From Chitinophaga sancti (GTDB lineage Bacteria; Bacteroidota; Bacteroidia; Chitinophagales; Chitinophagaceae), in NCBI RefSeq assembly GCF_034424315.1, contig NZ_CP139972.1:372001-436000 (forward strand): DNA of 64,000 nt. Direction: 5' to 3'. Below, piece by piece: positions 19,204-56,885 of the stretch. The position numbers and the translations under genes were made by a program. The first letter of the stretch is position 1; each line of letters begins with the position of its first letter. The notes beneath the pieces are model-generated. The model was not told the origin of the DNA, did no database searches, and worked only from the letters and a program-made list of their open reading frames with translations.

Positions 19204-19230
19204 AGAACTTATTTCATAGATAGGTATTTC
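19204..19230 (-). repeat. Half copy of the 73-bp palindromic element
   Basis: AGAACTTATTTCATAGATAGG and the next bases match the right end of the element family, in reverse orientation. It abuts the complete copy at 19237-19308. Confidence 0.55.
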
Positions 19231-19236
19231 TAGCCT

Positions 19237-19308
19237 GGAATTCATTTCATAAATAGGCATTTTCAATTGATAATCAATACTTAAATTTCAATTATGAAAT
19301 GAGTTCTA
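19237..19308 (-). repeat. Palindromic 73-bp interspersed element, copy A
   Basis: Full copy in reverse orientation. Ends GAATTCATTTCATAAATAGG and ATTATGAAATGAGTTCTA, core ATTGATAATCAAT. It is downstream of an AraC gene and next to a half copy, as if one element had entered or duplicated at another. Confidence 0.8.
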
Positions 19309-19327
19309 ATTAGAAAGATACCGCCTT

Positions 19328-19574
19328 CTACGATTTATCCCGCAATCATAAATTATCTCCTAATCTGATTCATCCTCTAATCATAATTTATCCCACAATC
19401 ATAATTTATCTCCTAATTTGATTTATTCTGTAATCATAATTACCCCGCAGTCATAATTTATCTCCTAATCTGATTTATCTCCTAATCTGATTTATTCTGT
19501 AATCATAATTACCCCCGCAATCCTGATTTATCCTCTAATCACGATTTATCCCACAATATTAATGATTTGTCCTC
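19328..19574. repeat. Tandem array of 13-14 units, 17-18 bp each
   Basis: Head-to-tail units around TCATAATTTATCTCCTAA, each 17 or 18 bases. Identical or nearly identical units begin at 19346, 19381, 19399 and 19451; a TCTGATTTATTCTGTAA-type variant occurs at 19417 and 19486. There are no spacers between units. The array fills the space between the palindromic element and the SDR promoter. Confidence 0.85.
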
Positions 19575-19620
19575 ATTGGCCTGTTTCTGCGGCGGTACCT
19601 TCGTTTCATAAATCGAAATT

Positions 19621-20346
19621 ATGAAATCAGCATTAGTAACTGGGGCCAATAAAGGTATTGGCTTTGAGGTAGCAAAAATACTTGCGCAAAAAGGATACTT
19701 TGTTTATTTAGGTAGCCGCAATCCTGAAAATGGCATTGCCGCAGTTGAAAAATTGAAATCCCAGGGCTTGCAGAATCTTTCTGCTGTTCAATTAGATGTG
19801 AGCAGCCAGGCATCGGTGGATGCAGCCAGGAACGCCATTCAATCCTTGGATATATTGGTGAACAATGCCGGTATTTCAGGCGGCCTGGAGCAGTCTGCTC
19901 TTAGTTCTGCCGCGGATCAGTATCTATCTGTGTATGAGACGAATGTATTTGGTGTAGTAAGAGTAACGCAGGCTTTTATTGATTTGCTAAAACAATCATC
20001 GGCCCCCAGGATTGTCAACGTCAGTACAGCGATGGCGTCTCTTTCACAGGCAGCGGATCTGGATAATGCTAATTATCCGAAGCGTTACGTCATCTATCAG
20101 TCTTCCAAGTCTGCATTGAATATGTACACGATAAACCTGGCTTATGAACTCCGGGATACTGCATTTAAGGTGAATGCGGTGTGTCCGGGGTATACACAAA
20201 CGGATTTTACGGGCCATCAGGGAACGAGTACACCGGAAGAGGCTGGGCAAAGGATTGCTAAATACGCATTGATAGGAGAGGATGGGCCAACAGGTAAATA
20301 TTTTAGTGAAGAATATTTCCCTGCACCGGCGACTTGCCCCTGGTAG
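19621..20346 (+). CDS. Short-chain dehydrogenase/reductase
   Basis: A 241-residue classical SDR. It has the cofactor motif TGANKGIG (residues 7-14), DVSS after beta-4, NNAGISGG near 81, a catalytic Ser in VNVSTAMASL and the YQSSK pair near 160. VCPGYTQTDFTG marks the PG motif. LGSRNPENG at the end of beta-2 (Arg rather than an acidic residue) favours NADPH. Related enzymes reduce carbonyls in detoxification, but the substrate is unknown. It is monocistronic, with repeats upstream and a hairpin terminator downstream. Confidence 0.88.
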   Translation: MKSALVTGANKGIGFEVAKILAQKGYFVYLGSRNPENGIAAVEKLKSQGLQNLSAVQLDVSSQASVDAARNAIQSLDILVNNAGISGGLEQSALSSAADQYLSVYETNVFGVVRVTQAFIDLLKQSSAPRIVNVSTAMASLSQAADLDNANYPKRYVIYQSSKSALNMYTINLAYELRDTAFKVNAVCPGYTQTDFTGHQGTSTPEEAGQRIAKYALIGEDGPTGKYFSEEYFPAPATCPW

Positions 20347-20363
20347 CTGGAACTTTGATTATT

Positions 20364-20410
20364 GAAAGGTGAGAAGGAATAATTAGGAACCAACTCACCT
20401 TTCGGATTTT
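20364..20410 (+). terminator. Terminator of the SDR gene
   Basis: A 10-bp inverted repeat (GAAAGGTGAG at 20364-20373 and its complement at 20394-20403), followed by GGATTTTT. Confidence 0.6.
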
Positions 20411-20543
20411 TAATTCATCTTTCGTTCCCCACTCATCGTTCTTCGTCATCCATCACCCATTCTCCATTCATCCTCCTCCAGCCTTCCTTCTCCATTCCCT
20501 ACTCAAAAATATTTATTTTTGTCGTTGAAAAAACTCAAGTAAC
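20411..20543. other. Pyrimidine-rich intergenic stretch, no gene seen
   Basis: The + strand is strongly C/T-rich from about 20410 to 20510, with irregular CCATTC/CATCC repeats. No frame looks coding. The region from 20617 to 21009 likewise holds no recognisable gene. Confidence 0.4.
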
Positions 20544-20616
20544 TAGAACTCATTTCATAATTACTATTTATGTATTGATTATCAGCTGGGAATACCTATT
20601 TATGAAATTAGTTCTA
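20544..20616 (+). repeat. Palindromic 73-bp interspersed element, copy B
   Basis: Full copy with TAGAACTCATTTCATAA at the left and ATGAAATTAGTTCTA at the right, so a TA dinucleotide is present at both ends. It is between the SDR and the thioredoxin genes. Confidence 0.85.
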
Positions 20617-20983
20617 ATATCGAGGAGCCAATTAGAGGGGGATTCGCATTATAGGATTAACATGCTCAAAATGCGTGATTGGAAGGCTTCCAATGATCTT
20701 CCTGCTTTCAATTTACTGAAGTTATTCTAACCTATTTTTATTTACAAATTTTTTCCTAATCAAAACGATCCTGCACGATATTTTTTTAATTCCCGTATTT
20801 CATCTCCCTCCAGGAATAAGCAGTCCTTAAAATACCCCGGTAATTTTTTAAAATTATTACTCCCTATTTATAGTAGCCAGCTAACTATCACTCCAATTAT
20901 TCACCTATTCCATTTTCCTAAGACATCTCCAGTAATCCTCCCAATCCCCCCACCCATCACCTCACCTGTAAAACCCAACTCCC

Positions 20984-21017
20984 TACTTGACACATAATAA
21001 TTAAAATCATAACTTCG
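20984..21017 (+). promoter_or_regulatory. Promoter of the thioredoxin-gene cluster
   Basis: TTGA, 19 bases, then TAACTTCG (21010-21017), one mismatch in each Bacteroidota element (TTTG-N19-TAnnTTTG). The ATG of the first small gene follows 7 bases later. Confidence 0.4.
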
Positions 21018-21024
21018 TCACCCT

Positions 21025-21213
21025 ATGGGAGCGACACTATTACACAAACTAAATCACATGCCACAGCATATCCTGCTGTCTTTCACACTTGTGCCAATAT
21101 TACTATCCTCCTGCCCGCTAAAGCGTGCAATCAACACCCGGATGCTCTTCCCTGCAAAAGAAGAACTTTCATTCCAACCGAAAACTGCCCCCAATTATTT
21201 ACCTGCTATATGA
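21025..21213 (+). CDS. Possible small lipoprotein
   Basis: A 62-residue frame with a hydrophobic stretch and lipobox (HILLSFTLVPILLSSCPLKR) and an otherwise featureless tail. A promoter-like site lies just upstream and two secreted thioredoxins follow. The ATG at 21061 would place the signal peptide at the very start. No family is recognised, so it could be spurious. Confidence 0.4.
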   Translation: MGATLLHKLNHMPQHILLSFTLVPILLSSCPLKRAINTRMLFPAKEELSFQPKTAPNYLPAI

Positions 21214-21258
21214 TGATAGCCAATAAAATCATCTATGCTCAACCTGCACAATAGACGA

Positions 21259-21774
21259 ATGAATATGAAAATAATAATTGCAGTTCATACACTCCTGATG
21301 TTGACCTGCTTTACAATAACAGCGAGTGCTACCAGCATTTCCACTTCAGACACTACCACTACTCCGGATTTCTCCCTTATAGACAGCAACGGGAAAAATA
21401 TCTCCATCCATTCCCTCCAGGGCAAAGTGGTATTTATCAACTTCTGGGCTACCTGGTGTCAGCCTTGTGTACAGGAAATGCCCTCCATCAATGAATTGAA
21501 AGAGTCTTTCAATGGAAACGACCAGGTCGTATTTCTGACTATAGATGTAGATGCAGAATTGCCAAAGTCAAAAGCCTACATGGATAACAAGCATTTCACC
21601 CTCCCCGTATATGCGGCCACCACTGCGATTCCCCGGGTGTTTTATTACCATTCCATCCCAACCACCACCATTCTGGATAAAAACGGAGAGATCATCTGGC
21701 ATGTGGAAGGAGGGAAGGACTATACCTCTCCTGAAATACGCAGGATCTTAACTGAGCACATAGAAAGTAAGTAA
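21259..21774 (+). CDS. Periplasmic TlpA-like thiol-disulfide oxidoreductase
   Basis: A secreted thioredoxin-fold protein of about 171 residues. The start at 21259 (MNMKIIIAVHTLLMLTCFTI) gives a proper signal peptide; an upstream in-frame ATG at 21235 adds a polar NLHNRR segment. The AhpC/TSA-type core has TPDFSLIDSNGKNISIHSL, then NFWATWCQPCVQEMPSI with the redox CQPC. The cis-Pro loop is SIPTTTILDKNG. Proteins of this kind reduce disulfides or supply electrons for cytochrome and cell-surface proteins. A paralogue follows 4 bases after its stop. Confidence 0.85.
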   Translation: MNMKIIIAVHTLLMLTCFTITASATSISTSDTTTTPDFSLIDSNGKNISIHSLQGKVVFINFWATWCQPCVQEMPSINELKESFNGNDQVVFLTIDVDAELPKSKAYMDNKHFTLPVYAATTAIPRVFYYHSIPTTTILDKNGEIIWHVEGGKDYTSPEIRRILTEHIESK

Positions 21775-21778
21775 CCCT

Positions 21779-22369
21779 ATGAACAAACAGAACATCCTGC
21801 GCTTTCTAAAAAAGAACCTGAATACGATGATATGGGGCCTCCTGATCATCGTATTAGTCACCAATACAAGCGCAAAAGCCTGGGTACTCAGGAGAATGAT
21901 GGATCTGGGCATCTTCAATGCACATATTAAACCAGGGCCTTCGCATGAAATCGTTTCTTTTAATTACCGGGATGTTGCGACTGGCAATGTGGTTAATACA
22001 TCTTCGCTTCGGGGAAAGGTGGTGTTTATCAATTGCTGGGCTTCCTGGTGCCCGCCATGCAGGGCGGAATTTTCCTCTGTCATGTCTTTATACAATCGTT
22101 TCAAAGATAACCCCCAGGTGGTATTCATCCTGATCAATGAAGATGATGATTTGGCAAAAGCAAAAGAATTCCTTCAAAAAGAGAATTGTAATTTACCCAT
22201 ATACAAGGCTCTGGATATTGTTCCGGTATCTGTGTATAATGGTACCTTGCCAACGACTGTAATCCTTGACAAAAAGGGTAAGATCAAGTATCATCACGAA
22301 GGGCTGGCTGATTATGGCAGGGAAGAATTCGCCAACCAGATCAATGAGGTCATCCGCTCTTTTGAGTAA
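21779..22369 (+). CDS. Membrane-anchored TlpA-like thioredoxin
   Basis: A 196-residue protein with a non-cleaved N-terminal membrane segment (TMIWGLLIIVLVTNTSA) and a thioredoxin domain with NCWASWCPPCRAEFSSVM (CPPC active site) and TLPTTVILDKKGK as the cis-Pro loop. It starts 4 bases after the first thioredoxin gene and shares its architecture, pointing to a tandem duplication followed by divergence. The pair may act as a relay, one soluble or released and one anchored (inference). Confidence 0.85.
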   Translation: MNKQNILRFLKKNLNTMIWGLLIIVLVTNTSAKAWVLRRMMDLGIFNAHIKPGPSHEIVSFNYRDVATGNVVNTSSLRGKVVFINCWASWCPPCRAEFSSVMSLYNRFKDNPQVVFILINEDDDLAKAKEFLQKENCNLPIYKALDIVPVSVYNGTLPTTVILDKKGKIKYHHEGLADYGREEFANQINEVIRSFE

Positions 22370-22482
22370 TTTGATCATCGGTTTTTTTAGCAAATTTGCA
22401 GTAGAGTAATAAAAAGACCATGGTAGTTTCTCTATCCTGAATAAAGGGGGAAAGAATCTCTACTTTTCCTTAATTTCCCACC

Positions 22483-23985
22483 ATGATAAGAACAGCCATC
22501 CTATTATTACTCACAGGAATATTTCCATTCCACGCCAACTTAGACCTCATCAGAGTAGATGGAGGCACCATTTCAGGCACCCACGCCGGCGACATCCATA
22601 TTTACAAAGGCATCCCTTTTGCCGCGCCTCCTGTCGGAGACCTGCGCTGGAAAGCGCCTCAACCAGTAATCCCCTGGTCTGGAACTAAACAATGCAGCAC
22701 CTTCGGCCCAAGTGCCGTACAAGGCGCCCCCCTGCCATTTGGCCCATGGAGTGAAGAATACCTGATACCCAAGGAGCCCATCAGCGAGGATTGCCTCTAT
22801 CTCAATGTCTGGAGCGGCGCAAAATCAGCTGCCGAAAAACGCCCGGTATTGGTCTACATTTATGGTGGTGCCTTTGCCGGTGGCGGAGCCGCCTGCCCGA
22901 TCTACGATGGCACGGCAATGGCAAAGAAAGGAATCGTATTCGTAAGCCTGAATTACAGGGTCGGCATCTTAGGTTTCATGGCTCATCCAGATCTAACTGC
23001 TGAGTCTAAAGACCACGCCTCAGGGAATTACGGCCTCCTGGACCAAATCGCTGCATTGCAATGGGTACAACGTAACATCGCATCATTTGGCGGAGACCCT
23101 GAAAATGTAACCATCGCAGGACAATCAGCAGGATCCATGAGCGTACATTGCCTGGTGGCATCCCCTTTAGGAAAGGGCTTATTTAAGCGTGCAATTGCTG
23201 AAAGCGGAGCCATGTTTGACGAATCCCCGGCCACATTAAAACAGGCAGAAGAAAGAGGGGCTGCTGTAGGTGCTAGCATCAATGATCTAAGAAAACTATC
23301 CACCGCAGAATTATTAAAAAAGCAATGGCAGGGCCGTGGTCCAATTGTAGATGCTTATGTATTACCTCAATCTGTTAGTGCCATCTTTGCGGCTGGAAAA
23401 GATAATAAGGTAGACTTGCTGACTGGCTGGAATGAAGACGATGGTGTTGATTTTAGCAAAAAAACGGCGGCAACATTTACAAGAGAAATAGATAATGAAT
23501 ATGGTGCTGATGCGGCGAAATTGCTAAATTACTACAAGGTGAAGAATGATACTGATATACCTGCAGCACAGACGCACTATTCGAGAGATATTGTATTTGG
23601 CGTGCAGAATTACACCTGGGCAGGCGTGCAGGCCGCAAAAGCGGGCAAAGTGTATGTCTATAATTTTACGCGTAAACTGCCAGCCTCCGGAGAATATATA
23701 AAATACGGGGCATTCCATACAGGTGAAGTAGCATATGCTTATAACAACCTGAACTTTGTAAAACGTTGTAATTTCACAACAGCGGACTTCAAACTGGCAG
23801 ATATCATGAGCGGCTATTGGGTAAATTTTGTAAAAACAGGAGATCCTAATGGAAAAGGCTTACCTGAGTGGCCGGAATATAATACAAAGGAATATTCCAC
23901 CCAGCTCCTCGGAGAAAAAATAGTAACAAAACCTCTGCCAGGAAAACAAGTATTAGATATAATAAAACGACATGCTAATCTGTAG
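22483..23985 (+). CDS. Secreted type-B carboxylesterase/lipase
   Basis: A 500-residue alpha/beta-hydrolase with a signal peptide (LLLLTGIFPFHANL). It shows the type-B start VDGGTISGTHAGDIHIYKGI and PVGDLRWKAP, SEDCLYLNVW, the oxyanion hole YIYGGAFAGGG and the nucleophile elbow TIAGQSAGSMS (Ser near 214). GAFHTGEVAYAY near 413 carries the catalytic His. Family members cut p-nitrobenzyl and other short esters. It is monocistronic, ending at a perfect hairpin. Confidence 0.9.
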   Translation: MIRTAILLLLTGIFPFHANLDLIRVDGGTISGTHAGDIHIYKGIPFAAPPVGDLRWKAPQPVIPWSGTKQCSTFGPSAVQGAPLPFGPWSEEYLIPKEPISEDCLYLNVWSGAKSAAEKRPVLVYIYGGAFAGGGAACPIYDGTAMAKKGIVFVSLNYRVGILGFMAHPDLTAESKDHASGNYGLLDQIAALQWVQRNIASFGGDPENVTIAGQSAGSMSVHCLVASPLGKGLFKRAIAESGAMFDESPATLKQAEERGAAVGASINDLRKLSTAELLKKQWQGRGPIVDAYVLPQSVSAIFAAGKDNKVDLLTGWNEDDGVDFSKKTAATFTREIDNEYGADAAKLLNYYKVKNDTDIPAAQTHYSRDIVFGVQNYTWAGVQAAKAGKVYVYNFTRKLPASGEYIKYGAFHTGEVAYAYNNLNFVKRCNFTTADFKLADIMSGYWVNFVKTGDPNGKGLPEWPEYNTKEYSTQLLGEKIVTKPLPGKQVLDIIKRHANL

Positions 23986-23993
23986 TAAATATG

Positions 23994-24032
23994 AATATTG
24001 AATAGACAGCCCTTGTCTATTCAATATTTTCC
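23994..24032 (+). terminator. Terminator of the carboxylesterase gene
   Basis: Perfect 15-bp inverted repeat AATATTGAATAGACA with a 5-base loop (23994-24008 and 24014-24028), followed by TTTCCC. Confidence 0.75.
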
Positions 24033-24086
24033 CTTCCCGAACACTTTGCCTGCCCACCCCCCATGAATAATCTCCAACCCCACTTA

Positions 24087-24482
24087 TCAAGGCAATGACA
24101 AATAAACCACCTCCGGCTCCTTCCCCCAGCTCTTAAGCCCTTCCCTCTTCAATAATTCCGTACCACCCAATTCCCCACAATAATTACTATACACCACCGC
24201 TGCAATCTTATAATGCCTGATCACATAAGCACAAAGCATACAAGGCTCCATATTCGAATACAAAACCGCCCCCTCACAAGACCCATACCTATGCACCGCA
24301 TCCAGCACCGCCACCACTTCCGCATGCCTTGTTACATCTTTCAGCCTGCGGCTTTGCTCCGTACCTTCGCCTATAATAAGCCCGTCTTTTACAATGACAC
24401 AGCCAACAGCACTTTCCCCTGCCTGCGCAGCTTCCCGCGCTAATGCAAGACAACGCTCTAAATAAGGTAGATGATTTTCCAT
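24087..24482 (-). CDS. Nucleoside/cytidine-type zinc deaminase
   Basis: A 131-residue deaminase from the ATG at 24482. Zinc ligands are plain: HAEVVAVLDAV (His, with the proton-shuttle Glu) and EPCMLCAYVI (two Cys). AAQAGESAVGCVIVKDG precedes them as in CMP/dCMP-, guanine- and tRNA-adenosine deaminases. The length and the missing tRNA-binding features leave the substrate open; guanine or a modified base is possible. It is divergent from the HAD phosphatase gene with only 34 bases between the two start codons. Confidence 0.82.
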   Translation of the reverse strand: MENHLPYLERCLALAREAAQAGESAVGCVIVKDGLIIGEGTEQSRRLKDVTRHAEVVAVLDAVHRYGSCEGAVLYSNMEPCMLCAYVIRHYKIAAVVYSNYCGELGGTELLKREGLKSWGKEPEVVYLSLP

Positions 24483-24488
24483 GTCCTG

Positions 24489-24511
24489 CAAAGATAGGTT
24501 TATTATATTTG
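24489..24511. promoter_or_regulatory. Back-to-back -7 boxes of the deaminase and HAD genes
   Basis: TATCTTTG on the minus strand (24489-24496) and TATATTTG on the plus strand (24504-24511) are both perfect TAnnTTTG boxes. Each ends 5-6 bases from its ATG, so both mRNAs would be leaderless or nearly so, and the -33 regions would lie inside the opposite gene. Confidence 0.45.
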
Positions 24512-24516
24512 CTCAT

Positions 24517-25149
24517 ATGATGTTTGAAAACAAGAAAGCCGTAATTTTCGATATGGATGGTGTTGTTATCGACAGTGAAAGATTTTGGTCGATAGCAGAG
24601 CGCGAAATCTTTACATCATTAGGTGTGAAAATAACAGCAGAAAATTGCCGCTTAACCCAAAAGATGACGGTGACGGAAGCCTCGAATTTCTGGTTCGGAA
24701 TATGCCCCTGGAATAAGGTGTCTATCCAGGAGGCCGAACAAATGGTTGTAAACAGGGTGATTGAGCTGATTAAATCATGCGATTGCGAAATAGCCCATGT
24801 AAGAGAATTTATTAAACATCTGAAATCCCGGGGCTGTAAAATTGGCCTGGCTACCAATTCCCCTGCATACTTTATTCCCATCTGCCTGGAGCGTGCCGGC
24901 ATTGCGGACCTCTTTGATGCAGTCGCGTCCGCAGAAGATGAAAAGAATGGGAAGCCACACCCGGATGTATACCTGACCGCCGCCAGAAAACTGGACGTAA
25001 AACCAGGTGAATGTGTAGTGATCGAAGATTCCTACCATGGCATACTGGCAGGAAAAAAAGCCGGTATGACGGTGATCGGCTTCACTAACGGAAACCCGGA
25101 AATATCATTCGATATTGCAGATTATATGTTGCATAGTTATGTACGTTGA
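24517..25149 (+). CDS. HAD-superfamily phosphatase (beta-phosphoglucomutase/HxpB-like)
   Basis: A 210-residue HAD enzyme. Motif I is FDMDGVVIDSERFW with the nucleophile Asp, motif II LATNSP, motif III GKPHPDVYLTAARKL and motif IV VIEDSYHGILAGKKAGM. The helical C1 cap lies between motifs I and II. The nearest relatives are hexitol/2-deoxyglucose-6-phosphate phosphatases and beta-phosphoglucomutases. The start at 24517 gives MMFENKKAVIFDMDG. Its stop overlaps the next gene by 11 bases. Confidence 0.85.
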   Translation: MMFENKKAVIFDMDGVVIDSERFWSIAEREIFTSLGVKITAENCRLTQKMTVTEASNFWFGICPWNKVSIQEAEQMVVNRVIELIKSCDCEIAHVREFIKHLKSRGCKIGLATNSPAYFIPICLERAGIADLFDAVASAEDEKNGKPHPDVYLTAARKLDVKPGECVVIEDSYHGILAGKKAGMTVIGFTNGNPEISFDIADYMLHSYVR

Positions 25150-25843: not shown

Positions 25844-25873
25844 TTTATCCTATTTTCAGGTAAGTCCACCCGC

Positions 25874-25899
25874 TAATTTTGTATTCTAAATTTGAATAC
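25874..25899 (+). promoter_or_regulatory. Promoter and inverted repeat before the VOC gene
   Basis: TAATTTTG (25874-25881) is a perfect -7 box. It runs into GTATTC-n7-GAATAC (25881-25899), a 6-bp inverted repeat at the expected start of transcription, which could be an operator. Confidence 0.45.
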
Positions 25900-25900
25900 A

Positions 25901-32312: not shown

Positions 32313-32384
32313 TAGAACTCATTTCATAATTACCGTTTATGTATTGATAATCAATTGAAATGCCTATTTATGAAATGAGTTCTA
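32313..32384 (+). repeat. Palindromic 73-bp interspersed element, copy C
   Basis: TAGAACTCATTTCATAA at the left, TTATGAAATGAGTTCTA at the right: perfect terminal inverted repeats with TA on both sides. The last three bases are the stop codon of the minus-strand small gene at 32382-32555. Confidence 0.85.
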
Positions 32385-35071: not shown

Positions 35072-35968
35072 ATGGAGATCTTAGCTCAGGTACAGGATGC
35101 CCTGGACTTTATTCATTCGGTGGATGTGTCGCATATTGACGATCAGTTACTGGCAAGGAGGGCGTTTTATGATAGCCTGGCACCCCTGGCAGGGCAGGTT
35201 GAAGCGGTTTGGCAGGTAGATGATACAATGACCGATACACAAATAAAACTACGCATATACCGGCCTGCTGATACCCCCATTCTGCCGGCAGTGGTCTTTT
35301 TTCATGGGGGTGGATTCAATTCCGGCAGCCTGGTTTCCCACGATCGACCTTTGCGGCAACTGGCTAATTCATCCGGGGTAATTATTATTGCTGTGGATTA
35401 CAGGTTGGCTCCTGAATACCCCTTTCCTGGCGGATTGAATGATTGTATGGCGGCGACCAGGTGGGTGTTTGATCATGCGACTGAATTGGGGATTGAGCCT
35501 TTACGCATTGGCGTGGCAGGAGATAGTGCAGGGGGGACCCTGGCGACAGCGGTTGGGGGGAAAATACCAGGTCTGAAGTGCCAGGTATTGATCTACCCGG
35601 CTATTGATCCTGCGCTGGATACAGGCTCCTGGAAAGCCTTTGCAAACGGACCAGTGATAACATTGGAACGGATGAGAAAAATATGGGCGGAGTATGCTGC
35701 TGGCAATAAACAGGCTGCCCCGGTATTTGAAAAAGATCTTTCAGGGATGCCCGATACATTTGTGATAATGGGGGAGTATGATCCGCTGGTGGATGAAGGG
35801 AAAGCTTATGCGGAGAAATTAAGACAAGGCTATGTGCAGGTAACGGAAAAAGTATATCCGAAAATGATTCATGGATTTTTCCAGATGGGAGGAGTGATGG
35901 CGCAAGGGCAGGCTGTGATCAAAGAAATAGCCGGTTATCTAAGATATAAATTAGAACTCATTTCATAA
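35072..35968 (+). CDS. Alpha/beta-hydrolase of the hormone-sensitive-lipase type
   Basis: A 298-residue esterase. The HSL motif HGGGFNSGS (oxyanion hole, near residue 85) precedes the nucleophile elbow VAGDSAGGTLA (Ser near 151). Asp is in GEYDPLVDEG and His in KMIHGFFQMG. These enzymes hydrolyse short acyl esters. The last codons, LELIS and stop, are encoded by the left end of a palindromic element that begins at 35952, so the original C-terminus has been replaced. The catalytic set is unaffected. Confidence 0.88.
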   Translation: MEILAQVQDALDFIHSVDVSHIDDQLLARRAFYDSLAPLAGQVEAVWQVDDTMTDTQIKLRIYRPADTPILPAVVFFHGGGFNSGSLVSHDRPLRQLANSSGVIIIAVDYRLAPEYPFPGGLNDCMAATRWVFDHATELGIEPLRIGVAGDSAGGTLATAVGGKIPGLKCQVLIYPAIDPALDTGSWKAFANGPVITLERMRKIWAEYAAGNKQAAPVFEKDLSGMPDTFVIMGEYDPLVDEGKAYAEKLRQGYVQVTEKVYPKMIHGFFQMGGVMAQGQAVIKEIAGYLRYKLELIS

Positions 35969-36023
35969 TTGCTATTTAAGTATTGATTATCAATTACAAA
36001 GGCCTATTTATGAAATGAGTTCT
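35952..36023 (+). repeat. Palindromic 73-bp interspersed element, copy D
   Basis: TAGAACTCATTTCATAA at the left and TTATGAAATGAGTTCT at the right. The left 17 bases form the last codons and the TAA stop of the hydrolase gene; the right end is 11 bases from the end of the convergent MDR gene. Confidence 0.85.
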
Positions 36024-39051: not shown

Positions 39052-39593
39052 CCGTAAATATAGTCAATCCTTTCGCTGCAAGTCAAACCAGTTGAGCAGC
39101 TTTCTTTTATCCGCATATTGATCTATTATTTAATACATCCATAATTAGGGTCTGCTGAATAAATTCCCGATCTGTTATTTTTCATTTTTACACCGAACCG
39201 ATTTACCCTTCTTAATGTCTCAGATATCGGGATATAAATTCCTTTTCCCACATCAGATTTTTTGCAAGTTCGAATCCAGCTTCTTAGAAGCTGGATTCAT
39301 TCATAGTTCCAATTTAACATTATTAGGGAGTTTAAAACAGAGGCATCAAAATTTGAAAGATGAATTCTTTTATGAAGCAAGATTATATTTTGGGGTATCA
39401 GTTAGTACTAATGAATTTAATCACACGCTATGGTTACGGCATAGTCATTAGAGTTAATAAGAAATTTTGCGACATCTTTCAAAGTGAATCAAAAATTACA
39501 ATATTGACAGTCATCGTTTTATAAACTACAGTTGTGTACAAATTGATTTGTCAAATACTTTTTGATGAGATAATTTCAAATAAAATTTCCACT
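39052..39593. other. AT-rich intergenic region before yhcG-like gene
   Basis: More A/T-rich than the flanks. A plus frame at 39215-39451 exists (78 codons) but has no recognisable features and includes a perfect palindrome, so it was not called. Confidence 0.4.
39272..39298. repeat. Perfect 27-bp palindrome
   Basis: GAATCCAGCTTCT-t-AGAAGCTGGATTC: 13-bp arms with a single central base. It has no T tail and no gene ends here. Confidence 0.6.
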
Positions 39594-40649
39594 ATGAATG
39601 AAGTTCAGCCTGGCTACATAGAATTTATCACGAGACTAAAAAGGGTAATTCATGATGCAAGATTGCAAACAATTCAAACAGTAAATCAACAATTACTAAT
39701 TCTATATTGGCAAATTGGAAACAAGATTCTACAAATGCAAAATAAAGAAGGATGGGGTACCAAAGTAATAGATAGAATCAGCAATGACCTGAAAAGAGAA
39801 TTCTCTGATATGAAGGGGCTTTCCTCTCGTAATCTCAAATATATGAGAGCATTTGCAGAGACCTATCCGGAATTTCAAAAATCATTATTAATTGATAATC
39901 AATATATTGTTGACGATGAGTCAATTGTGCAAGCACCACTTGCACAATTGACCTGGTACCATCATATTACCTTACTAGACAAGGTAAAAGATTCAGAAGA
40001 ACGTATCTTCTATATTTACCAAACTGCCCAGCATGGTTGGAGCCGCAATATACTCGTGCATCACATAGAAAGTAATTTATATCATAGACAAGGGAAGGCT
40101 ATAAATAACTTCACCCACACTTTACCGTCAGCCCAAAGTGATTTAGCCAGGGAAATCATAAGAGATCCGTACAAGTTTGATTTTTTGACTATGGGTGAAA
40201 GGTACCATGAAAAAAATTTAGAAGATGCATTGATAACTCATATCACAAAATTCTTACTAGAATTAGGCGCAGGTTTCAGCTTCGTAGGACGTCAGTATAA
40301 GATAGAGATGGGAAATCAGGATTTCTATATTGATTTATTATTCTACCATCTTAAGTTAAGATGTTTTGTGGTTATAGAATTAAAAACGGGATCTTTCATA
40401 CCTGAATATGCAAGCAAACTAAACTTTTACTTAAACGTTGTAGATGACAAACTTCGACATACCTCTGATCATGTCACGATAGGAATATTGATATGTAAAG
40501 AACGAAATAAGATCATAGCAGAATATGCACTTCGCGGAATTAATAATCCCATAGGGATAGCGGAATATGAATTAACCCAATCCATACCTGATAATCTAAA
40601 AGGCGATTTGCCGTCAATTGAGGAGCTAGAAAGAGAATTGGAAAGGTAA
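39594..40649 (+). CDS. YhcG-family (DUF1016) PD-(D/E)XK nuclease-like protein
   Basis: A 351-residue protein from ATG 39594 (MNEVQPGYIEFITRLKRVIH). The N-terminal DUF1016 part has ARLQTIQTVNQQLLILYWQI and FSDMKGLSSRNLKYMRAFAE, then PLAQLTWYHHITLLDKVKD. The C-terminal nuclease fold has FYIDLLFYHLKLRCFVVIEL followed by KTG, i.e. the D-x(n)-ExK core. Members are often found in or near restriction-modification and defence islands and may come from transposon-linked nucleases. It stands alone here and is AT-rich in codon use, which suggests recent transfer. Confidence 0.9.
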   Translation: MNEVQPGYIEFITRLKRVIHDARLQTIQTVNQQLLILYWQIGNKILQMQNKEGWGTKVIDRISNDLKREFSDMKGLSSRNLKYMRAFAETYPEFQKSLLIDNQYIVDDESIVQAPLAQLTWYHHITLLDKVKDSEERIFYIYQTAQHGWSRNILVHHIESNLYHRQGKAINNFTHTLPSAQSDLAREIIRDPYKFDFLTMGERYHEKNLEDALITHITKFLLELGAGFSFVGRQYKIEMGNQDFYIDLLFYHLKLRCFVVIELKTGSFIPEYASKLNFYLNVVDDKLRHTSDHVTIGILICKERNKIIAEYALRGINNPIGIAEYELTQSIPDNLKGDLPSIEELERELER

Positions 40650-50020: not shown

Positions 50021-50110
50021 ATGTAATATTTATACCTATTTAGTATAGAAGATGTACTATATCTTCACTATATTCAGTAACATTGTTATTATAATCTCCA
50101 AATCATTTTT

Positions 50111-50650: not shown

Positions 50651-50807
50651 TCATTTTTTATTCTGACTACAGTCATTAATTTTTCCGGCTGATTGATTGC
50701 TGAAAGCGTTTTTATTCTTTTAGCTTGTGACAATGTATTGTGAATGCTTATTCGTTAGCTCATAAGAAATTATGGGAGGTAACTTATTGCCTATATTTTT
50801 CATCACT

Positions 50808-50880
50808 TAGGACTCATTTCATAATTACTGTTTATGTATTAATTATCAGTTGGAAATACCTATTCATGAAATGAGTTCCA
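50808..50880 (+). repeat. Palindromic 73-bp interspersed element, copy E
   Basis: TAGGACTCATTTCATAATTA at the left and CATGAAATGAGTTCCA at the right; a few bases differ from the consensus, so it is an older copy. It is in a 400-bp gap with no other gene. Confidence 0.8.
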
Positions 50881-51039
50881 GTACTTTTGAAATTGAACTG
50901 GTAGAAGGAGCCTTATGATTTCTTCATGGATCCTGGGCAGGAAGAATATTGGAAGCCAGCATATCTGTAACGGCTAAGGCATCCGGATCATAAGAATGCA
51001 AGCATTCCACGATTTATTAATGTAAAATCCAGGATTCCT

Positions 51040-51047
51040 TAAATTTG
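51040..51047 (+). promoter_or_regulatory. -7 box of the lipoprotein gene
   Basis: TAAATTTG, a perfect match, four bases before the ATG at 51052. The resulting mRNA would be leaderless or nearly so. Confidence 0.45.
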
Positions 51048-51051
51048 CAAG

Positions 51052-51579
51052 ATGAGGTGTTTCTTGATTTTTTTAATAGCAATTTTTGCCAGCTGTACGA
51101 GGAGGTCTAATATAAAGACTATTCAAAAAGAACCGGAGGATTCCATTTCTTTTTTCTGGACATATAAGGATTCGGTGACTATCCTGAAATTTGGTTTTAA
51201 CCGGGAGAAAATGCAATACAGCTGTACTGATCCCAGGGAGTCTTTTACTTTATTTTATGACTCGGTGCAGCAAAAATGGTTATTTAAAGATAGGGTGGAT
51301 AGTTGTACAATGTACGTCGAAAAAGAAGATGGATACAACGAAAATGGAACCTGGTATCATGTAAGCAAACTCATTTTGGATAAAGGTGTAACGGATGGAG
51401 AGGTTACTTATGTTGTTGAAGAAAAGGCCGGTCTGCTGGCCAGAAAATCAAATACATGGCGGTATGCGATGTTCCGTAAAACGGATGATGCTCATTTGGC
51501 AGCGATTATGTACAGGGTGATTTCGGATCGTGATTTTTATGATAATGATACAGCGGGTATGAGGCAGAATTTAAAATAG
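51052..51579 (+). CDS. Lipoprotein of unknown function
   Basis: A 175-residue lipoprotein with lipobox LIAIFASCTRRS (Cys near 15). The rest is a beta-rich domain (DSVTILKFGFNREKMQYSCT, KWLFKDRVDSCTMYVEK) with a second Cys pair that could form a disulfide. No family is recognised. It has its own -7 box and stands alone. Confidence 0.65.
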   Translation: MRCFLIFLIAIFASCTRRSNIKTIQKEPEDSISFFWTYKDSVTILKFGFNREKMQYSCTDPRESFTLFYDSVQQKWLFKDRVDSCTMYVEKEDGYNENGTWYHVSKLILDKGVTDGEVTYVVEEKAGLLARKSNTWRYAMFRKTDDAHLAAIMYRVISDRDFYDNDTAGMRQNLK

Positions 51580-51622
51580 CATATGAAAAATAAGTTGCCC
51601 GGGAATGTAATTAACAGCGCTC

Positions 51623-51817
51623 TTATACTTTATCCAGGGTAGGGTTAATGATGAACATCATTCTTTTCCTGGGAAAATAATTTTTCAAATAGCCCTGGTG
51701 TAGTAGCGATAGCATTGTATACTGGCTTGTCCGCAGAGAGGTAGCCAGGAACGGCGTTCCGTTTTGAAAGATATACAACCGGGGTGAGTTTTCAACCATT
51801 TTTGTATAAATTTGCAA
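51623..51817 (-). CDS. Unassigned short ORF
   Basis: A 64-codon minus-strand frame, with GTPFLATSLRTSQYTMLSLL and KNYFPRKRMMFIINPTLDKV. Its composition is protein-like, and a GGAACGGCGTTCC palindrome lies within it. It may be part of an unknown repeat or a decayed gene; no homologue is recognised. It shares its upstream region with the promoter of the following plus gene. Confidence 0.2.
   Translation of the reverse strand: MQIYTKMVENSPRLYIFQNGTPFLATSLRTSQYTMLSLLHQGYLKNYFPRKRMMFIINPTLDKV
51807..51814 (+). promoter_or_regulatory. -7 box of the small membrane-protein gene
   Basis: TAAATTTG, 21 bases before the ATG at 51836. Confidence 0.45.
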
Positions 51818-51835
51818 TCACTTATACCTATTATT

Positions 51836-52279
51836 ATGGAACTGAATACTTCCCGTGAATACCCTATGTTCCTCATAGATATCACCCGCTTTCCGATATT
51901 AATCTATTTATTTCCGCTTTTCTTTTTTGATAAAAATGTCTCTTTTATTGGCTATCTTTTTATTTTATATATCGTCCTTGCGCAGCTGAATTATAAATTC
52001 ACAACAAGGGTTCATCTCGATGAAGGGAGACTGATCATTCAGTACAGGCGGTTTTTTATTAGGAGGGAAAAGGTGATTGGGTTGAAGGGAATGGTGATGA
52101 CGATGCAGGATTACGAGGATGTGTTAGTGAAATTGTTTTCTTCGCGTCGGGTAAATCAATTGTTGACGATTAAAGTGAATGGAGACAAGTTATACAGATT
52201 GGATACGAGAGAAGGGTATACTAAAGAGGCATTTTTGGAATTGATGCAGGCGGTAGGGAGAGCTCCGGTACTGGAATAA
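51836..52279 (+). CDS. Small membrane protein with PH-like domain
   Basis: A 147-residue protein from ATG 51836 (MELNTSREYPMFLIDITRFP). Two membrane segments lie in residues 15-60 (ILIYLFPLFFF; FIGYLFILYIVLAQL). The cytoplasmic part, RVHLDEGRLIIQYRRFFIRR through LTIKVNGDKLYRLDTREGYT, resembles the bacterial PH-like domains next to membrane helices. The start at 51812 (TTG) was rejected because it overlaps the -7 site. Function is unknown. Confidence 0.6.
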   Translation: MELNTSREYPMFLIDITRFPILIYLFPLFFFDKNVSFIGYLFILYIVLAQLNYKFTTRVHLDEGRLIIQYRRFFIRREKVIGLKGMVMTMQDYEDVLVKLFSSRRVNQLLTIKVNGDKLYRLDTREGYTKEAFLELMQAVGRAPVLE

Positions 52280-52362
52280 ATGAATCCGGGAGCTGATTTG
52301 AATCATTAAGGAGTATGGAATAATGCTAAAAATATAAGTGCTGCTTATTATCTTTAGCCATT

Positions 52363-53310
52363 ATGGTTACTCAGAAATTATTTTTTTGCATTGCATTATT
52401 TGCCACGTTTATTTCCACAAAATGCCTGGCACAACAGCCGTCTATATTCCTGGCTGATCCAACCATTTTTAAGGACAAAGGAAAATACTACCTCTACGGA
52501 ACGGGCAGTCCGAATGGATTTCCTGTGTATGAGTCAGCGGATCTCAAAACCTGGAAACCCGCAAGAGGGCATGCAGATAGCCTCGCGCTGACCCGTGGCA
52601 ATGCCTATGGCACAGAAGGCTTCTGGGCGCCCCAGGTATTCCAGCACAAGGGCGTTTATTACATGGCCTATACTGCCAATGAACAGATTGCAATAGCGAC
52701 TGCTAAGCACCCGGCAGGCCCTTTTAAACAGGATAGCATCCATGCACTCAGGAGCAGGGGAAAGCAGATTGATCCTTTTATATTTTTTGATGACAACGGC
52801 AAGGTTTACCTCTATCATGTTAAGTTAGAACATGGTAACCGCATCTTTGTAGTAGAAATGAAACCTGATTTGTCTGATATTATTCCCGGTACAGAAAAGG
52901 AACTAATTGCAGGCACTGAGCCATGGGAGAATACGGCAAAAACTGACTGGCCTGTAACAGAAGGGCCGACTGTTATTAAAATCAAAAAGACCTATTACCT
53001 GGTTTATTCTGCAAATGATTTTCGTAATAAGGATTATGCAGTAGGATATGCTACGGCCACCTCTCCATTAGGGCCCTGGGTGAAGGCAAAGAATAGCCCG
53101 TTTATCAGCAGGCATAATATGGGTGAGAATGGAACCGGGCATGGAGACATTTTCTTTGATCAGCAGCACAATATGTACTATGTGTTACACACGCATCGTT
53201 CTGCAGATAAGGTTTCCCCTCGTGCTACGGGAATGGTTAAACTGAAATTGGTAAATCCGGCAAGATTGGTTGCTGATTCAACTTCTTTCCAATGGTTAAA
53301 AGCCGGGTAG
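52363..53310 (+). CDS. Secreted glycoside hydrolase family 43 enzyme
   Basis: A 315-residue five-bladed propeller with a signal peptide (FFCIALFATFISTKCLA). The GH43 acids are seen as FLADPTIFKDKGKYYLYGTG (base), KQIDPFIFFDDNGKVYLYHV (pKa modulator) and WPVTEGPTVIKIKKTYYLVY (general acid Glu). GFWAPQVFQHKGVYYMAYTA and HGDIFFDQQHNMYYVLHTHR are typical blades. GH43 enzymes release arabinose or xylose from plant polysaccharides. It is monocistronic and not in a classical polysaccharide-utilisation locus. Confidence 0.92.
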   Translation: MVTQKLFFCIALFATFISTKCLAQQPSIFLADPTIFKDKGKYYLYGTGSPNGFPVYESADLKTWKPARGHADSLALTRGNAYGTEGFWAPQVFQHKGVYYMAYTANEQIAIATAKHPAGPFKQDSIHALRSRGKQIDPFIFFDDNGKVYLYHVKLEHGNRIFVVEMKPDLSDIIPGTEKELIAGTEPWENTAKTDWPVTEGPTVIKIKKTYYLVYSANDFRNKDYAVGYATATSPLGPWVKAKNSPFISRHNMGENGTGHGDIFFDQQHNMYYVLHTHRSADKVSPRATGMVKLKLVNPARLVADSTSFQWLKAG

Positions 53311-53317
53311 AAATATC

Positions 53318-53348
53318 ATCAGCGTGGTAGCCAAGCTACCACGCTGAT
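53318..53348. terminator. Bidirectional terminator
   Basis: Perfect 14-bp inverted repeat ATCAGCGTGGTAGC with a 3-base loop between the convergent GH43 and lipoprotein genes. Confidence 0.75.
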
Positions 53349-53355
53349 CAAACTA

Positions 53356-54336
53356 TTAAATCTTGCCAAATGACCCGAGCATTTCCCCTTTTGTCACTGT
53401 CTTTACCTCTCCGGCCTCGTTGTACAATTTACATGTAAACCGGATCTTTGTTTTTAAATACAGGGTGCCTGTAACATCTCTTGCATCTTCAATACTGATA
53501 ATACTAAAGGTGCTACCCGTCTGATCTCCGCTACCATTATTCGATTGCCATTGTACACCATTGGGGTCTTTCCACCCGATACTAACACCATCCATAGTGG
53601 AGAAATCTTTGGTATAATTGCGGGTGCCTGCAGCAAAGAAGGCCCTAAACTGACTGTCTGAAGCTTTAAGATAACCGTGCATGGTACCGATCTCGATTCC
53701 GAAGCTGGTGGAGTTTGCGGGAGCATCATCATAGCCATAGATGATACTGGCACCGAAGCTCACATCATCTACTCCATTCAGGAAGGAACCGGGTTGCCAG
53801 TTGTTATACATCGTTGCGGACTGGGAATATTCCTTGCCATCAATGGTAATGGAATAGTGGTAATCCGAACTACTTCCACTGTTATCATTGCCGATAGCGG
53901 TAACGGTTACACTACAAGAGGTAGTGCCTATTTTATAGGAAATAGCGTTGGAGCCGGCGGCGATGGGCACCCCTGTACCCTGTAAGGTAATGGTTTGCGC
54001 ACCGGTGGTGCTGAATGAGCCGGCACCCACAAAGACCATCCCATTTACGGCGCCGGTGGCCATGGACCAGTCGCCGGCTTTAGTAACATTTAGTTTAATT
54101 TTTATCAGGGCATCTGATCCTAAAGCTTTACCCACCTGGTAGGTACCGCTGATGCTGGCATCTTCGCAGCTGCTGATGTTATATTGGGCTGTTCCTCCCG
54201 TTACTATTCCTGTCGTGTCAGATCCTCCTGTTTGTCCAGTCGGCGGATCGATAGATTTTTCTTTTCCACAACCAAAGCTGATGACCAGCATGATGGCTAT
54301 GAATGGCCGGAAAAGCCATTTGAGATCACAAAACAT
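53356..54336 (-). CDS. Lipoprotein with Bacteroidota beta-sandwich repeats, function unknown
   Basis: A 326-residue lipoprotein (lipobox VISFGCGKEK, Cys near 23). Residues 45-145 form a GTYQVGKALGSDALIKIKLN... MVFVGAGSFSTTGAQTITLQ ... ISYKIGTTSCSVTVTAIG unit, a beta-sandwich found in many Chitinophaga surface proteins. A second domain (155-326) begins YHYSITIDGKEYSQSATMYN. Probably surface-exposed. It is convergent with the GH43 gene, so a direct link in function is not shown. Confidence 0.72.
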   Translation of the reverse strand: MFCDLKWLFRPFIAIMLVISFGCGKEKSIDPPTGQTGGSDTTGIVTGGTAQYNISSCEDASISGTYQVGKALGSDALIKIKLNVTKAGDWSMATGAVNGMVFVGAGSFSTTGAQTITLQGTGVPIAAGSNAISYKIGTTSCSVTVTAIGNDNSGSSSDYHYSITIDGKEYSQSATMYNNWQPGSFLNGVDDVSFGASIIYGYDDAPANSTSFGIEIGTMHGYLKASDSQFRAFFAAGTRNYTKDFSTMDGVSIGWKDPNGVQWQSNNGSGDQTGSTFSIISIEDARDVTGTLYLKTKIRFTCKLYNEAGEVKTVTKGEMLGSFGKI

Positions 54337-54613
54337 ACTTTATTATTATTGTTTAATGCTAATACGGAACAATGCCAGGGGCACAAGATATCGATAATCG
54401 CAGTGCGAATGTATTAATTTCATGGTGAAATAGGAAAACAGGGTAGGGGTTGAAGTGAGTAAGGGCGTATTTTTTTAAGCTCTTAGGAAAGGAGATCTGG
54501 ATTTAAATTATTGATTGCCACATATAATAGGAGTTCCCCGGGAGTAGCAAAAAAAAATTACCAATTACTGTAAGTTTTTGAGCGGATACGCTACTAATGA
54601 ATAAACACTTAAA

Positions 54614-55513
54614 ATGAAAGGACTGAAGTATTCCCAAACCATTGTAATCTGTATTGTGTTCTTATTAGCTGGCCTGAATGCGGCTATTGCCCAACAAAGG
54701 AAAGGCCTGTTGTGGGAGATCTCAGGTAATGGCCTGAAACAACCTGCTTATTTATTTGGTACAGTACACGTGTATGATACGACCCTGTATGCCTTGCCTC
54801 AGTTGCCGGCCGGCCTGGTGGATAAAATTGATAAGGTATATTTTGAAATGGATTATTCAAAGATAGACCAGGCGGAATTGATGGCGAGTATCCTTATAAA
54901 AGATAGTGCACAGTATTTGAATAAACTATTAGATACCGGAGCGATAGCAAGTCTTAAAAAGCTATCGGCATCGTCTCCTATGTTGAAAATGATGGGTAAC
55001 CAGATTTATGCGGTTAAGCCATTCATCCTGATGTCATGGATTTCGGCGGGTGGGACGAAGGCAGCTACGGTGGATTTTGAATTGTTTAAGATGATGGTTG
55101 CGCAGCAAAAGCCCGTTGGCGGATTGGAAACGGTCAAAGAGCAGATGGCGGCGGTAGATGCGGTGCCACTGTCTAAGCAGGCGGATATGCTGGCGAAAGC
55201 GCTTGATGGAAGATTTTCGCTGGAGCAGCAGGTAAGCCGGGTGACGGAGGTGTATACAAGGCAGGAACTGGATAACCTGATGACAGTATTGAATGATAAT
55301 ATACCAGTGGATGCAAGTTTTGATGATGCGATACGCTTAAACAGGAATGTGACGATGGCTGATAAGATAGCGGCAATTCTTCGTACTGAGCATCCATTGA
55401 TAGCTGTTGGGGCGGGGCATTTTGGTAATAATGATGGATTGATTGCTTTGTTAGAGAAAAAGGGGTATAGCCTGAAGAGTGTTCCGGTGCTTATCAGGAA
55501 GGTGAGGGAGTAG
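54614..55513 (+). CDS. TraB/GumN-family protein, secreted
   Basis: A 299-residue protein with a signal peptide (IVICIVFLLAGLNAAIAQ). The family marks are LLWEISGNGLKQPAYLFGTV followed by HVYD (GTVH), a Glu in KVYFEMDYSK, GGLETVKEQMAAVD and the second GxxH motif IAVGAGHFGNNDGLIALLEK. These conserved His and Glu belong to the TIKI/TraB protease clan, so it may be a metalloprotease. Its stop is directly followed by a duplicated segment of the sigma-factor leader. Confidence 0.82.
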   Translation: MKGLKYSQTIVICIVFLLAGLNAAIAQQRKGLLWEISGNGLKQPAYLFGTVHVYDTTLYALPQLPAGLVDKIDKVYFEMDYSKIDQAELMASILIKDSAQYLNKLLDTGAIASLKKLSASSPMLKMMGNQIYAVKPFILMSWISAGGTKAATVDFELFKMMVAQQKPVGGLETVKEQMAAVDAVPLSKQADMLAKALDGRFSLEQQVSRVTEVYTRQELDNLMTVLNDNIPVDASFDDAIRLNRNVTMADKIAAILRTEHPLIAVGAGHFGNNDGLIALLEKKGYSLKSVPVLIRKVRE

Positions 55514-55661
55514 AGATTGATTTAAAGAGCATTCTATTTGTCATCAAAAGGTAGTGTGATAATAGTTAAATTGAATAATTATTAATTCCAAAATATGAGA
55601 TCTAACCTAAAGAGCATTCTATTTATCATCAAAAAGGCAGTGTAGTAATGGTCAAAACTGA
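55511..55661. repeat. Duplicated leader segment before the sigma-factor gene
   Basis: About 60 bases around TTTAAAGAGCATTCTATTTG/A-TCATCAAAA-GG-AGTGT-TAAT-GTTAAA occur twice, 85 bases apart (core at 55524 and 55609). The second copy ends in the ATG of the ECF sigma gene; the first has ATA at that position. Confidence 0.7.
55595..55645 (+). CDS. Possible 16-residue leader peptide before the ECF sigma gene
   Basis: ATG at 55595 opens MRSNLKSILFIIKKAV with a TAG that ends two bases before the ATG of the sigma gene (TAGTAATG). The upstream duplicate keeps the same frame as LKSILFVIKR then stop, so this reading frame may be under some constraint. Coupled translation is possible. Confidence 0.3.
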   Translation: MRSNLKSILFIIKKAV

Positions 55662-56148
55662 ATTTCTACAATTGACTATGCCGCACCAGGGGATCATATT
55701 TAAGGTAGTGAATATCTATGCTGATCATAAGGAGGATAAGGATGATTTGTTGCAGGAAATATGGTTGCAGTTATGGTTAGCCTACCCCCGGTTTAAAGCG
55801 GCGAGTAAAATTTCAACCTGGATGTACCAGGTAGCTTTGAATACAGCACTTACGTATACACGTAATTCTGCAACGAGAAGTAAACACCTGCAGCATTTAG
55901 CAGCGGCACCGGCGCCAGTGGCAGATGACGATGATAAAGTGAAGCATGAGCAGGAGCGGCTGCTCTGGGAAATGATCCGATCGCTTCCGAATGCAGAAAA
56001 GGCACTCATCCTTTTGTACATTGAAGGGATTGGGTACCGGGAAATCGCGGAGATCACGGGAGAATCGGAGAGTAATGTAGGGGTGAAGCTAAACCGGATC
56101 AAACAGAAAATGAAGAGTAATTTGAATACTAACACTAAAAAACAATAG
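55648..56148 (+). CDS. ECF-type RNA polymerase sigma factor
   Basis: A 166-residue sigma-70 family factor with region 2 (KVVNIYADHKEDKDDLLQEI, WLAYPRFKAASKISTWMYQV) and region 4 (LPNAEKALILLYIEGIGYRE, ITGESESNVGVKLNRIKQKM). Region 3 is absent. It is followed after 2 bases by a small membrane protein that could be its anti-sigma factor. The gene has an unusual leader with a duplicated segment and a possible leader peptide. Confidence 0.9.
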   Translation: MVKTEFLQLTMPHQGIIFKVVNIYADHKEDKDDLLQEIWLQLWLAYPRFKAASKISTWMYQVALNTALTYTRNSATRSKHLQHLAAAPAPVADDDDKVKHEQERLLWEMIRSLPNAEKALILLYIEGIGYREIAEITGESESNVGVKLNRIKQKMKSNLNTNTKKQ

Positions 56149-56150
56149 TG

Positions 56151-56750
56151 ATGGAAATGCAGGACGACTTCGAATCTCTGTTAAAAGGAGCGGCCGGTAA
56201 TTTTGGCCAGGAATCGCTTTCTGAGCAGGCCCTAAGTGAGATGATTGATGATAGACTGATGGAAAGCAGGAACAGGTTGAGGGCTGAATTCCGTAAGGAG
56301 ATCATGTTGATTGTAGTCACGTTGGTGTCGATCATTTATTTACTGGTGCAGTTGTATCGGCATCCACATCAGTACCGGCCACAGTTTTATGATAGTTTAA
56401 GGGTGGCAATACTGGGCGGGGTGGTATATTTAGTGGGTAGTTTTGTATTGTTCCTGCGCCTGGTGCAGGTTGCGAAGACACAGAAAGATATGGGTGTAAG
56501 GGGGTATATAAAGGGGATCTATACAAAAACGGAGCGGGCTTTGCTAACGTATCTGTGGGTTTCTACGATTGCATCTACAGGTACGCTGGCGACGGTATTG
56601 GCATGGAATCCCAAATTGGGGTGGTATTGGATGGTAATTGGTATTTTTTTGATGGGAGTGGGGATGTATTATTTGAATAAGATATATACGGATAAGAGGT
56701 TTGGAAAAAGGTTGAGGGAGATGAAAGGATTGCTGGAGGAGTTTGAATGA
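56151..56750 (+). CDS. Membrane protein next to the ECF sigma, possible anti-sigma factor
   Basis: A 199-residue protein starting MEMQDDFESLLKGAAGNFGQ from ATG 56151. A cytoplasmic N-terminal 55 residues with acidic helices is followed by three or four membrane segments (IMLIVVTLVSIIYLLVQLY, VAILGGVVYLVGSFVLFLR, WVSTIASTGTLATVLAW, WMVIGIFLMGVGMYYL). No zinc-binding anti-sigma motif is seen. The two genes lie 2 bases apart, so regulation of the sigma by this protein is plausible but only inferred. Confidence 0.65.
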   Translation: MEMQDDFESLLKGAAGNFGQESLSEQALSEMIDDRLMESRNRLRAEFRKEIMLIVVTLVSIIYLLVQLYRHPHQYRPQFYDSLRVAILGGVVYLVGSFVLFLRLVQVAKTQKDMGVRGYIKGIYTKTERALLTYLWVSTIASTGTLATVLAWNPKLGWYWMVIGIFLMGVGMYYLNKIYTDKRFGKRLREMKGLLEEFE

Positions 56751-56812
56751 CATCCCCTTCAGCCGTTCATCACGCCGCAGTGCAGGGTTGAAAATATTTG
56801 CCTATCTTAGGC

Positions 56813-56885
56813 TGGAACTCATTTCATAATTGCTATTTATGTATTGATTATCAATTGAAAATGCCAGTTTGTGAAATGAGTCCCG
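56813..56885 (+). repeat. Palindromic 73-bp interspersed element, copy F
   Basis: GGAACTCATTTCATAATTGC at the left and TGTGAAATGAGTCCC at the right, core ATTGATTATCAAT. The right arm has diverged. It ends 25 bases before the ATG of the next gene, so it lies in the promoter region. Confidence 0.8.

Follow-up and report, generated by a model that had tools for sequence, protein, structure and literature searches.

The palindromic repeats scattered through this stretch of Chitinophaga DNA are most probably a family of miniature inverted-repeat transposable elements (MITEs); we put at about 0.88 the probability that they are internally deleted derivatives of an IS5-family insertion sequence (IS) of IS427-group-like plan, moved in trans by its transposase. 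We find many copies with shared ends, a bias towards TA at their borders, one site that is empty in sister genomes and, in two of these genomes, a complete, TA-flanked IS with closely similar ends. The family is new, while the kind of mobile element is well known and ordinary. A group of Bacteroidota gains a high-copy marker of past transposition together with a candidate parent IS, and an example of a MITE that supplies a stop codon, settles just upstream of a gene and seeds tandem arrays; the general understanding of MITEs is unchanged.

Copies in the window and across the genome

The window, by which we mean the whole 64-kb stretch analysed, comprises bases 372001-436000 of the genome G000, a single contig of 8.42 Mb (8,421,768 bases). 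Sequence reading and a profile search confirm six copies and one half copy where the original prediction had placed them, and the profile search likewise gives no match in the first 19 kb. Copy 1 (19238..19306, minus strand, flanks TG and TA) is oriented opposite to copies 2 to 6, all on the plus strand. Copies 2 (20546..20614, TA and TA), 3 (32315..32382, TA and TA) and 5 (50810..50878, TA and CA) were, like copy 1, defined by sequence and profile search, copy 4 (35954..36022, TA and TT) by sequence reading, and copy 6 (56815..56883, TG and CG), whose site is empty in G031, G014, G086 and G081, by sequence reading and alignment. The core measures 68 bp in copy 3 and 69 bp in the other five. 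The half copy (19205..19233, minus strand), one arm preceded by TA, matches the profile at 391204-391233 in genome coordinates (E=0.0056). Two details of the prediction change: the terminal inverted repeat is 15 rather than 16 bases long, GAACTCATTTCATAA, its supposed leading A being part of the flanking TA, and TA borders both sides of two of the six copies (2 and 3), the other four having it on one side or neither. That the window holds no transposase stands for the 48 ORFs scanned against Pfam, out of 84 listed (at least 100 aa). A 12-base end alone, with up to two mismatches, gives 25 matches in the window against a shuffled mean of 9.6, so that single ends at such stringency are partly chance. 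As a separate observation, an operator-like tandem array of ~18-bp units (GATTTATCCCACAATCATAATTTATC...) lies at 19330-19575, with an AraC-type regulator on one side and a short-chain dehydrogenase on the other; about two units are seen by eye in G031, G014 and G081, and the array looks like an expanded operator.

Genome-wide, the consensus search proposed with the prediction reveals a multi-copy family, above controls. With 40 of 117 candidates scored, the 73-nt consensus has at least 41 matches of 89-97% identity; a 27-mer pattern that overlaps an end of the element hits 65 times against 0 for the reversed control, and the 15-bp end with up to two mismatches occurs at 180 sites against 17, 100 of the 180 being among the matches listed. 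At E<1e-3 the profile yields 88 matches, 76 of them near full length, in 428,272 of 8,421,768 bases; these bases were chosen around known copies, so they are not a random sample of G000, and the counts take array units one by one and an IS-split copy as two pieces. Twenty further 20-kb samples of the genome gave one weak partial match (E=0.002). Among the 77 copies with both ends readable, the core from GAACTC to GAGTTC spans 67-70 bp in 67 and 69 bp in 45. The elements are short and non-coding and carry 15-bp terminal inverted repeats, as MITEs do. Their distribution shows clustering: G000:C1:5906446-7491920, 1.58 Mb or 18.8% of the genome, is free of listed copies (61 pattern sites, array counted once). 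A gap as large as this one (5.91-7.49 Mb) arose in 3 of 20,000 random placements of 61 sites, and a cluster like that of the window, six sites within 40 kb, in 8 of 20,000; random placement ignores regional differences, and the statistic does not give the cause.

Two pairs of copies (4812263/8250886 and 2476372/7804528) are 100% identical within unrelated flanks, and therefore arose by movement, not by segmental duplication. Divergence amounts to 6% in the ends versus 12% between them, a difference that fits recognition of the ends by a transposase. Some copies have been reshaped. Mini-elements of 37 bp, two among the 77 copies with readable ends, may be explained by deletion between two internal CTATTTATG repeats; the product computed for such a deletion is identical in every base to the mini-element at G000:7518964. 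An array at G000:C1:5585260-5585678 consists of six head-to-tail 70-bp MITE units, neighbours sharing one TA, and a three-unit array lies at G000:670121-670332; these 70-bp arrays show tandem amplification of the MITE. A 1.8-kb element at G000:C1:1059946-1061740 (L060 4947-6741), considered as a full-length parent, was discarded: it is another IS, with ends GGGTCTGCTGA, that splits a MITE copy. Another repeat of ~60 bp adjoins a MITE copy at G000:C1:1530648-1530710 (L064 3649-3711); G014, G081 and G031 contain many matches to it, partly in tandem, and its core motif is absent from the window.

The TA target and an empty site

Flanking dinucleotides were counted for 77 of the 88 copies, the remaining 11 lacking two readable ends. 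Against a background of 7.3% (0.073), TA stands on the left in 52/77, on the right in 53/77, on at least one side in 68/77 and on both in 37/77; nine copies have it on neither side, two of these being AT/AT. Position by position, the commonest outer bases spell A-Y-TA to the left and TA-R-T to the right. The MITE would be expected to insert at TA within a wider AYTA/TART context, the TA being duplicated.

The comparison of occupied with empty sites that the original prediction called for succeeds at copy 6. Aligned by eye, the four sister genomes G031, G014, G086 and G081 have an empty site of equal length, 16 bp each (CTTAGGTACTTAACCC in G031, CTTAGGTAAATAACCC in the other three), and G000 minus the core and one dinucleotide is 16 bp too. 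An empty allele thus exists, its length fitting a core plus 2 bp, that is, a target-site duplication at one equal-length site seen in four genomes; the picture of sites fixed in all relatives, named in advance as speaking against mobility, does not apply. The four alleles are not four independent observations, because G014 and G086 are near relatives (98.5-99.8% identity over five shared loci), and the letters TA rest on the flank statistics of the 77 copies, because the flanks of copy 6 itself have decayed to TG and CG. At copies 1-4 the spacers of the compared genomes diverge too far to display an empty site. Taken together, copy number, TA flanks, the one empty site and the transposon ends of sister genomes support the predicted MITE with TA duplication.

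One copy in G014 sits in a 47-bp tandem array, at the TA of a single unit, and the remaining units carry no copy. G086 is without this copy, but its array is also shorter, and the comparison is confounded by contraction. The array itself is intergenic (L159 1583-1792, G014:C1 3262834-3263043), differs in unit number among G014, G086 and G081, and is missing at the corresponding site in G000 and G031.

A candidate parent and its relatives

Which transposase could have moved these elements? The search for an enzyme with the same terminal repeats, also proposed with the prediction, led through a contig-end match in G031, used as query, to a complete IS5-type IS with near-matching ends in G014 and G081. 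An 843-bp core is flanked by TA on both sides at unrelated sites in the two genomes, and in G014 its ends are identical to those of the MITE at 13 and 14 of 15 positions; G014 and G081 thus hold an autonomous element with matching ends. Both copies encode overlapping frames of 187 and 161 aa. The first matches PF13340 (DUF4096, E=4.9e-30) and the second PF01609 (DDE_Tnp_1, E=2.5e-19), each in both elements, and both frames match NF033580, the NCBIfam IS5 model, which was run on the G014 pair; Pfam and NF033580 together indicate an IS5-type DDE transposase. An A6G5 run, AAAAAAGGGGG, within the frame overlap of the G014 copy is a candidate frameshift motif. The available part of PMC3281130 describes IS427-group elements as 832-865 bp long, with two overlapping ORFs, a frameshift motif and a direct repeat (DR) of 2 bp in all but one, the exception having a DR of 4. 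Measured against that partial description, the IS has the length (about 0.83-0.87 kb), the 2-bp DR and the two overlapping ORFs of the group. It would therefore be an IS5-family element that we call IS427-group-like, a group name taken from architecture.

Beyond the ends, IS and MITE show a weak match, 7/10 at positions 16-25 of one arm, with a shuffle P of 0.023 that belongs to the best among several comparisons, and nothing in the 843-bp IS was seen to correspond to the MITE centre. The IHF-like motif reported for IS427 elements is present exactly in 0/67 copies and with one mismatch in 49/67, a count made without a chance control. Of the IS, G000 retains 133 bp at 91% identity and an end fragment of 115 bp at 79%, and end-site and fragment searches found no intact parent IS in it. 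Of its 180 end sites, 158 fall within fetched stretches, where two lie outside any catalogued copy; because the remaining 22 are close to the number expected by chance, these site counts make it unlikely that a complete IS with such ends is hidden in G000. Seven near-identical 259-aa IS5-type copies of G000 were considered as mobiliser and set aside: the ends of the single copy read are GAGTATGTTTAAA and do not resemble those of the MITE.

We infer that the lineage of the 843-bp IS made and moved the MITE copies; as the actual mobiliser it is a candidate. Its transposase would bind the 15-bp ends and would move the non-coding MITEs in trans. Given that the source is only fragmentary in G000, the identical pairs moved before it was lost, or in trans. 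For the same reason the copies of G000 are now probably immobile orphans, kept where genes stay unbroken.

The family is clade-restricted: the search of 79 genus genomes, in each of which part of the candidates was scored, showed full-length copies in four (G000, G014, G086 and G031), and the copies per genome are lower bounds. At E<=1 some match appears in 55 of 59 genomes; those beyond G000, G014 and G031 are partial (for example, 52 bases at 77% in G020, E=8.8e-4, and 34 bases in G054, E=2.8e-5) and are taken as chance. A scan of viral sequences with a 20-bp end matched one stretch. A search for exact ends shows identical 15-bp ends around palindromes of 50-56 bp at four loci, three of them in two Herbaspirillum genomes and the fourth in a betaproteobacterial MAG. 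TA flanks both sides of two palindromes (L141 and L146), and the flanks of the other two read TG/CA and AT/AT. These palindromes share the 15-bp ends with our MITEs, whereas their centres differ, they are shorter and they belong to another phylum. Ends common to Bacteroidota and Betaproteobacteria are the only feature that would set this family apart from ordinary MITEs. A bolder and rather doubtful idea is that GAACTCATTTCATAA ends with a TA target serve miniature elements in both groups through horizontally spread IS427-type transposons, that any of these could move minimal two-ended palindromes as short as 37 bp, and that orphan MITEs could be re-mobilised by a foreign IS.

As far as the accessible parts of the sources go, several known systems are comparable. 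IS1248 and ISPaes1 of the IS427 group (PMC3281130) resemble the parent IS in their two overlapping ORFs, IS5-family DDE transposase and similar length and DR, a likeness of architecture; unlike such ISs, the present MITEs carry no ORF. In three plasmid relatives the candidate ends are repeats of only 7-13 bases, and the proteins of the IS share less than 60% identity with every plasmid relative reported. BrickBuilt and MITE464/PgRS, both of Porphyromonas gingivalis, and Neisseria ATR also combine IS5-type ends with the lack of a transposase, and a link to tandem repeats is a further likeness; BrickBuilt and MITE464 are likewise found in Bacteroidota (PMC4596501, available part). However, the ends of the BrickBuilt group (GAGACC/GAGACT...) are unlike those of our MITE, the target-site duplication of BrickBuilt varies in length, and in that group a minisatellite lies inside the MITE (same part of PMC4596501), whereas in our family the whole MITE can turn into the unit of a tandem repeat. 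MITECca01 of Cardinium is another Bacteroidota MITE traced to an IS by its ends, its parent being the IS982-family ISCca4, unlike the candidate IS5-type parent here (PMC9769881, accessible part). A literature search, with most subscription papers outside it, found no paper that pairs Chitinophaga with "miniature inverted-repeat" and none that contains the exact 15-base end.

Gene context and competing explanations

According to a home-made ORF caller, none of the 88 copies overlaps a predicted gene by 40 bp or more. Copies favour gene ends: 40 of the 87 placed copies lie between convergent genes, a figure raised because tandem arrays were counted unit by unit, and 6 between divergent genes, although convergent and divergent spacers are about equal in total length (15.9 and 16.3 kb). 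This bias, with 63 of 87 copies nearest a stop codon, is one ground for regarding the repeats as REP-like elements or RNA hairpins under selection to terminate transcription or stabilise mRNA at gene ends; another is that each of the six window copies folds more stably than its shuffled versions (z -2.6 to -8.1, -15.9 to -24.8 kcal/mol). The same bias is also expected if promoter-near insertions are purged, the divergent spacers are not empty of copies, copy 6 lies near a start codon and flank composition displays no T-run after the element. Despite the end bias, 24/87 copies are nearest a gene start; a distribution that follows transcription ends only, the other outcome named in advance, is therefore not observed. 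In a table of 62 rows, leaving out array units and odd lengths, the paired share of the 16 outermost pairs is 89.0% versus a shuffled mean of 88.5% (12/1000 shuffles reach it), an excess of half a percentage point that relatedness without structure can yield as well. Over all pairs the paired share does not stand out (54/1000), and double changes number 4 versus a mean of 2.2 in the 16 outer pairs (168/1000) and 16 versus 13.9 in all pairs (256/1000). Sliding the partner by 1-3 columns lowers the paired share from 73% to 28-51%, which tells solely that the element is a palindrome. With a pairing excess in the ends that is very small at most and double changes not in excess, we rejected selection for an RNA hairpin: the palindrome is real, and the alignments give no good sign that a hairpin is selected, which leaves this explanation improbable. 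The REP-like label also fails against the available part of PMC3733652, where a REP is a GTAG- or CGTC-tagged palindrome of 20-40 bp; the consensus here is 69 bp and has neither tag at its ends.

The original prediction had named an IS630/Tc1-type enzyme, and movement of the MITE by an IS630/Tc1-mariner transposase would agree with the TA target and the short palindromic build known from RUP-like elements, which combine both features. A TA target is found here as that family requires, yet it is common to IS427-type elements and so not diagnostic. Both complete elements with such ends encode IS5-family proteins; Pfam at E<=0.001 finds IS4/5-type and DDE_Tnp_1-type domains only and no IS630-type domain in them, and the searches brought up no transposon with these ends from any other family. 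We consider this enzyme very unlikely. Dispersed binding sites of a regulator, not mobile DNA at all, would likewise be palindromic and intergenic with a conserved centre (ATTGATTATCAAT). A 69+2 bp insertion at the otherwise conserved site of copy 6, copies that are identical although their loci are unrelated, an IS with closely similar ends, and full-length copies in just four of the 79 genus genomes make that account hardly credible. A MITE family derived from an IS5-family element is the reading we retain.

At individual genes the insertions have left visible traces. The claim that all window copies lie between genes or at gene ends needs correction at copy 4, which is only partly intergenic: the ORF at 35072-35968 takes its TAA stop from the left terminal repeat (35954-35968) of this copy. 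The copy replaces the C-terminus of this alpha/beta hydrolase ORF (PF07859), which ends in ...RYKLELIS and a stop, versus ...RYKLFF and a stop in G031; G014 has at this site only a broken gene remnant ending in RYKLS and a stop. A GFO/IDH/MocA oxidoreductase gene has its start codon 26 bp beyond copy 6, and 4 bp upstream of the copy the alignment shows a TATCTTAG box (56803..56810, plus strand), kept in five aligned genomes, which by the Bacteroidota consensus we take to be a putative promoter-like element. Copy 6 may thus lie within the mRNA leader of the oxidoreductase gene. Elsewhere in the window, 39534-40649 encodes a YhcG-type PDDEXK nuclease (PF06250, PF17761), of a kind frequently associated with defence or genome maintenance.
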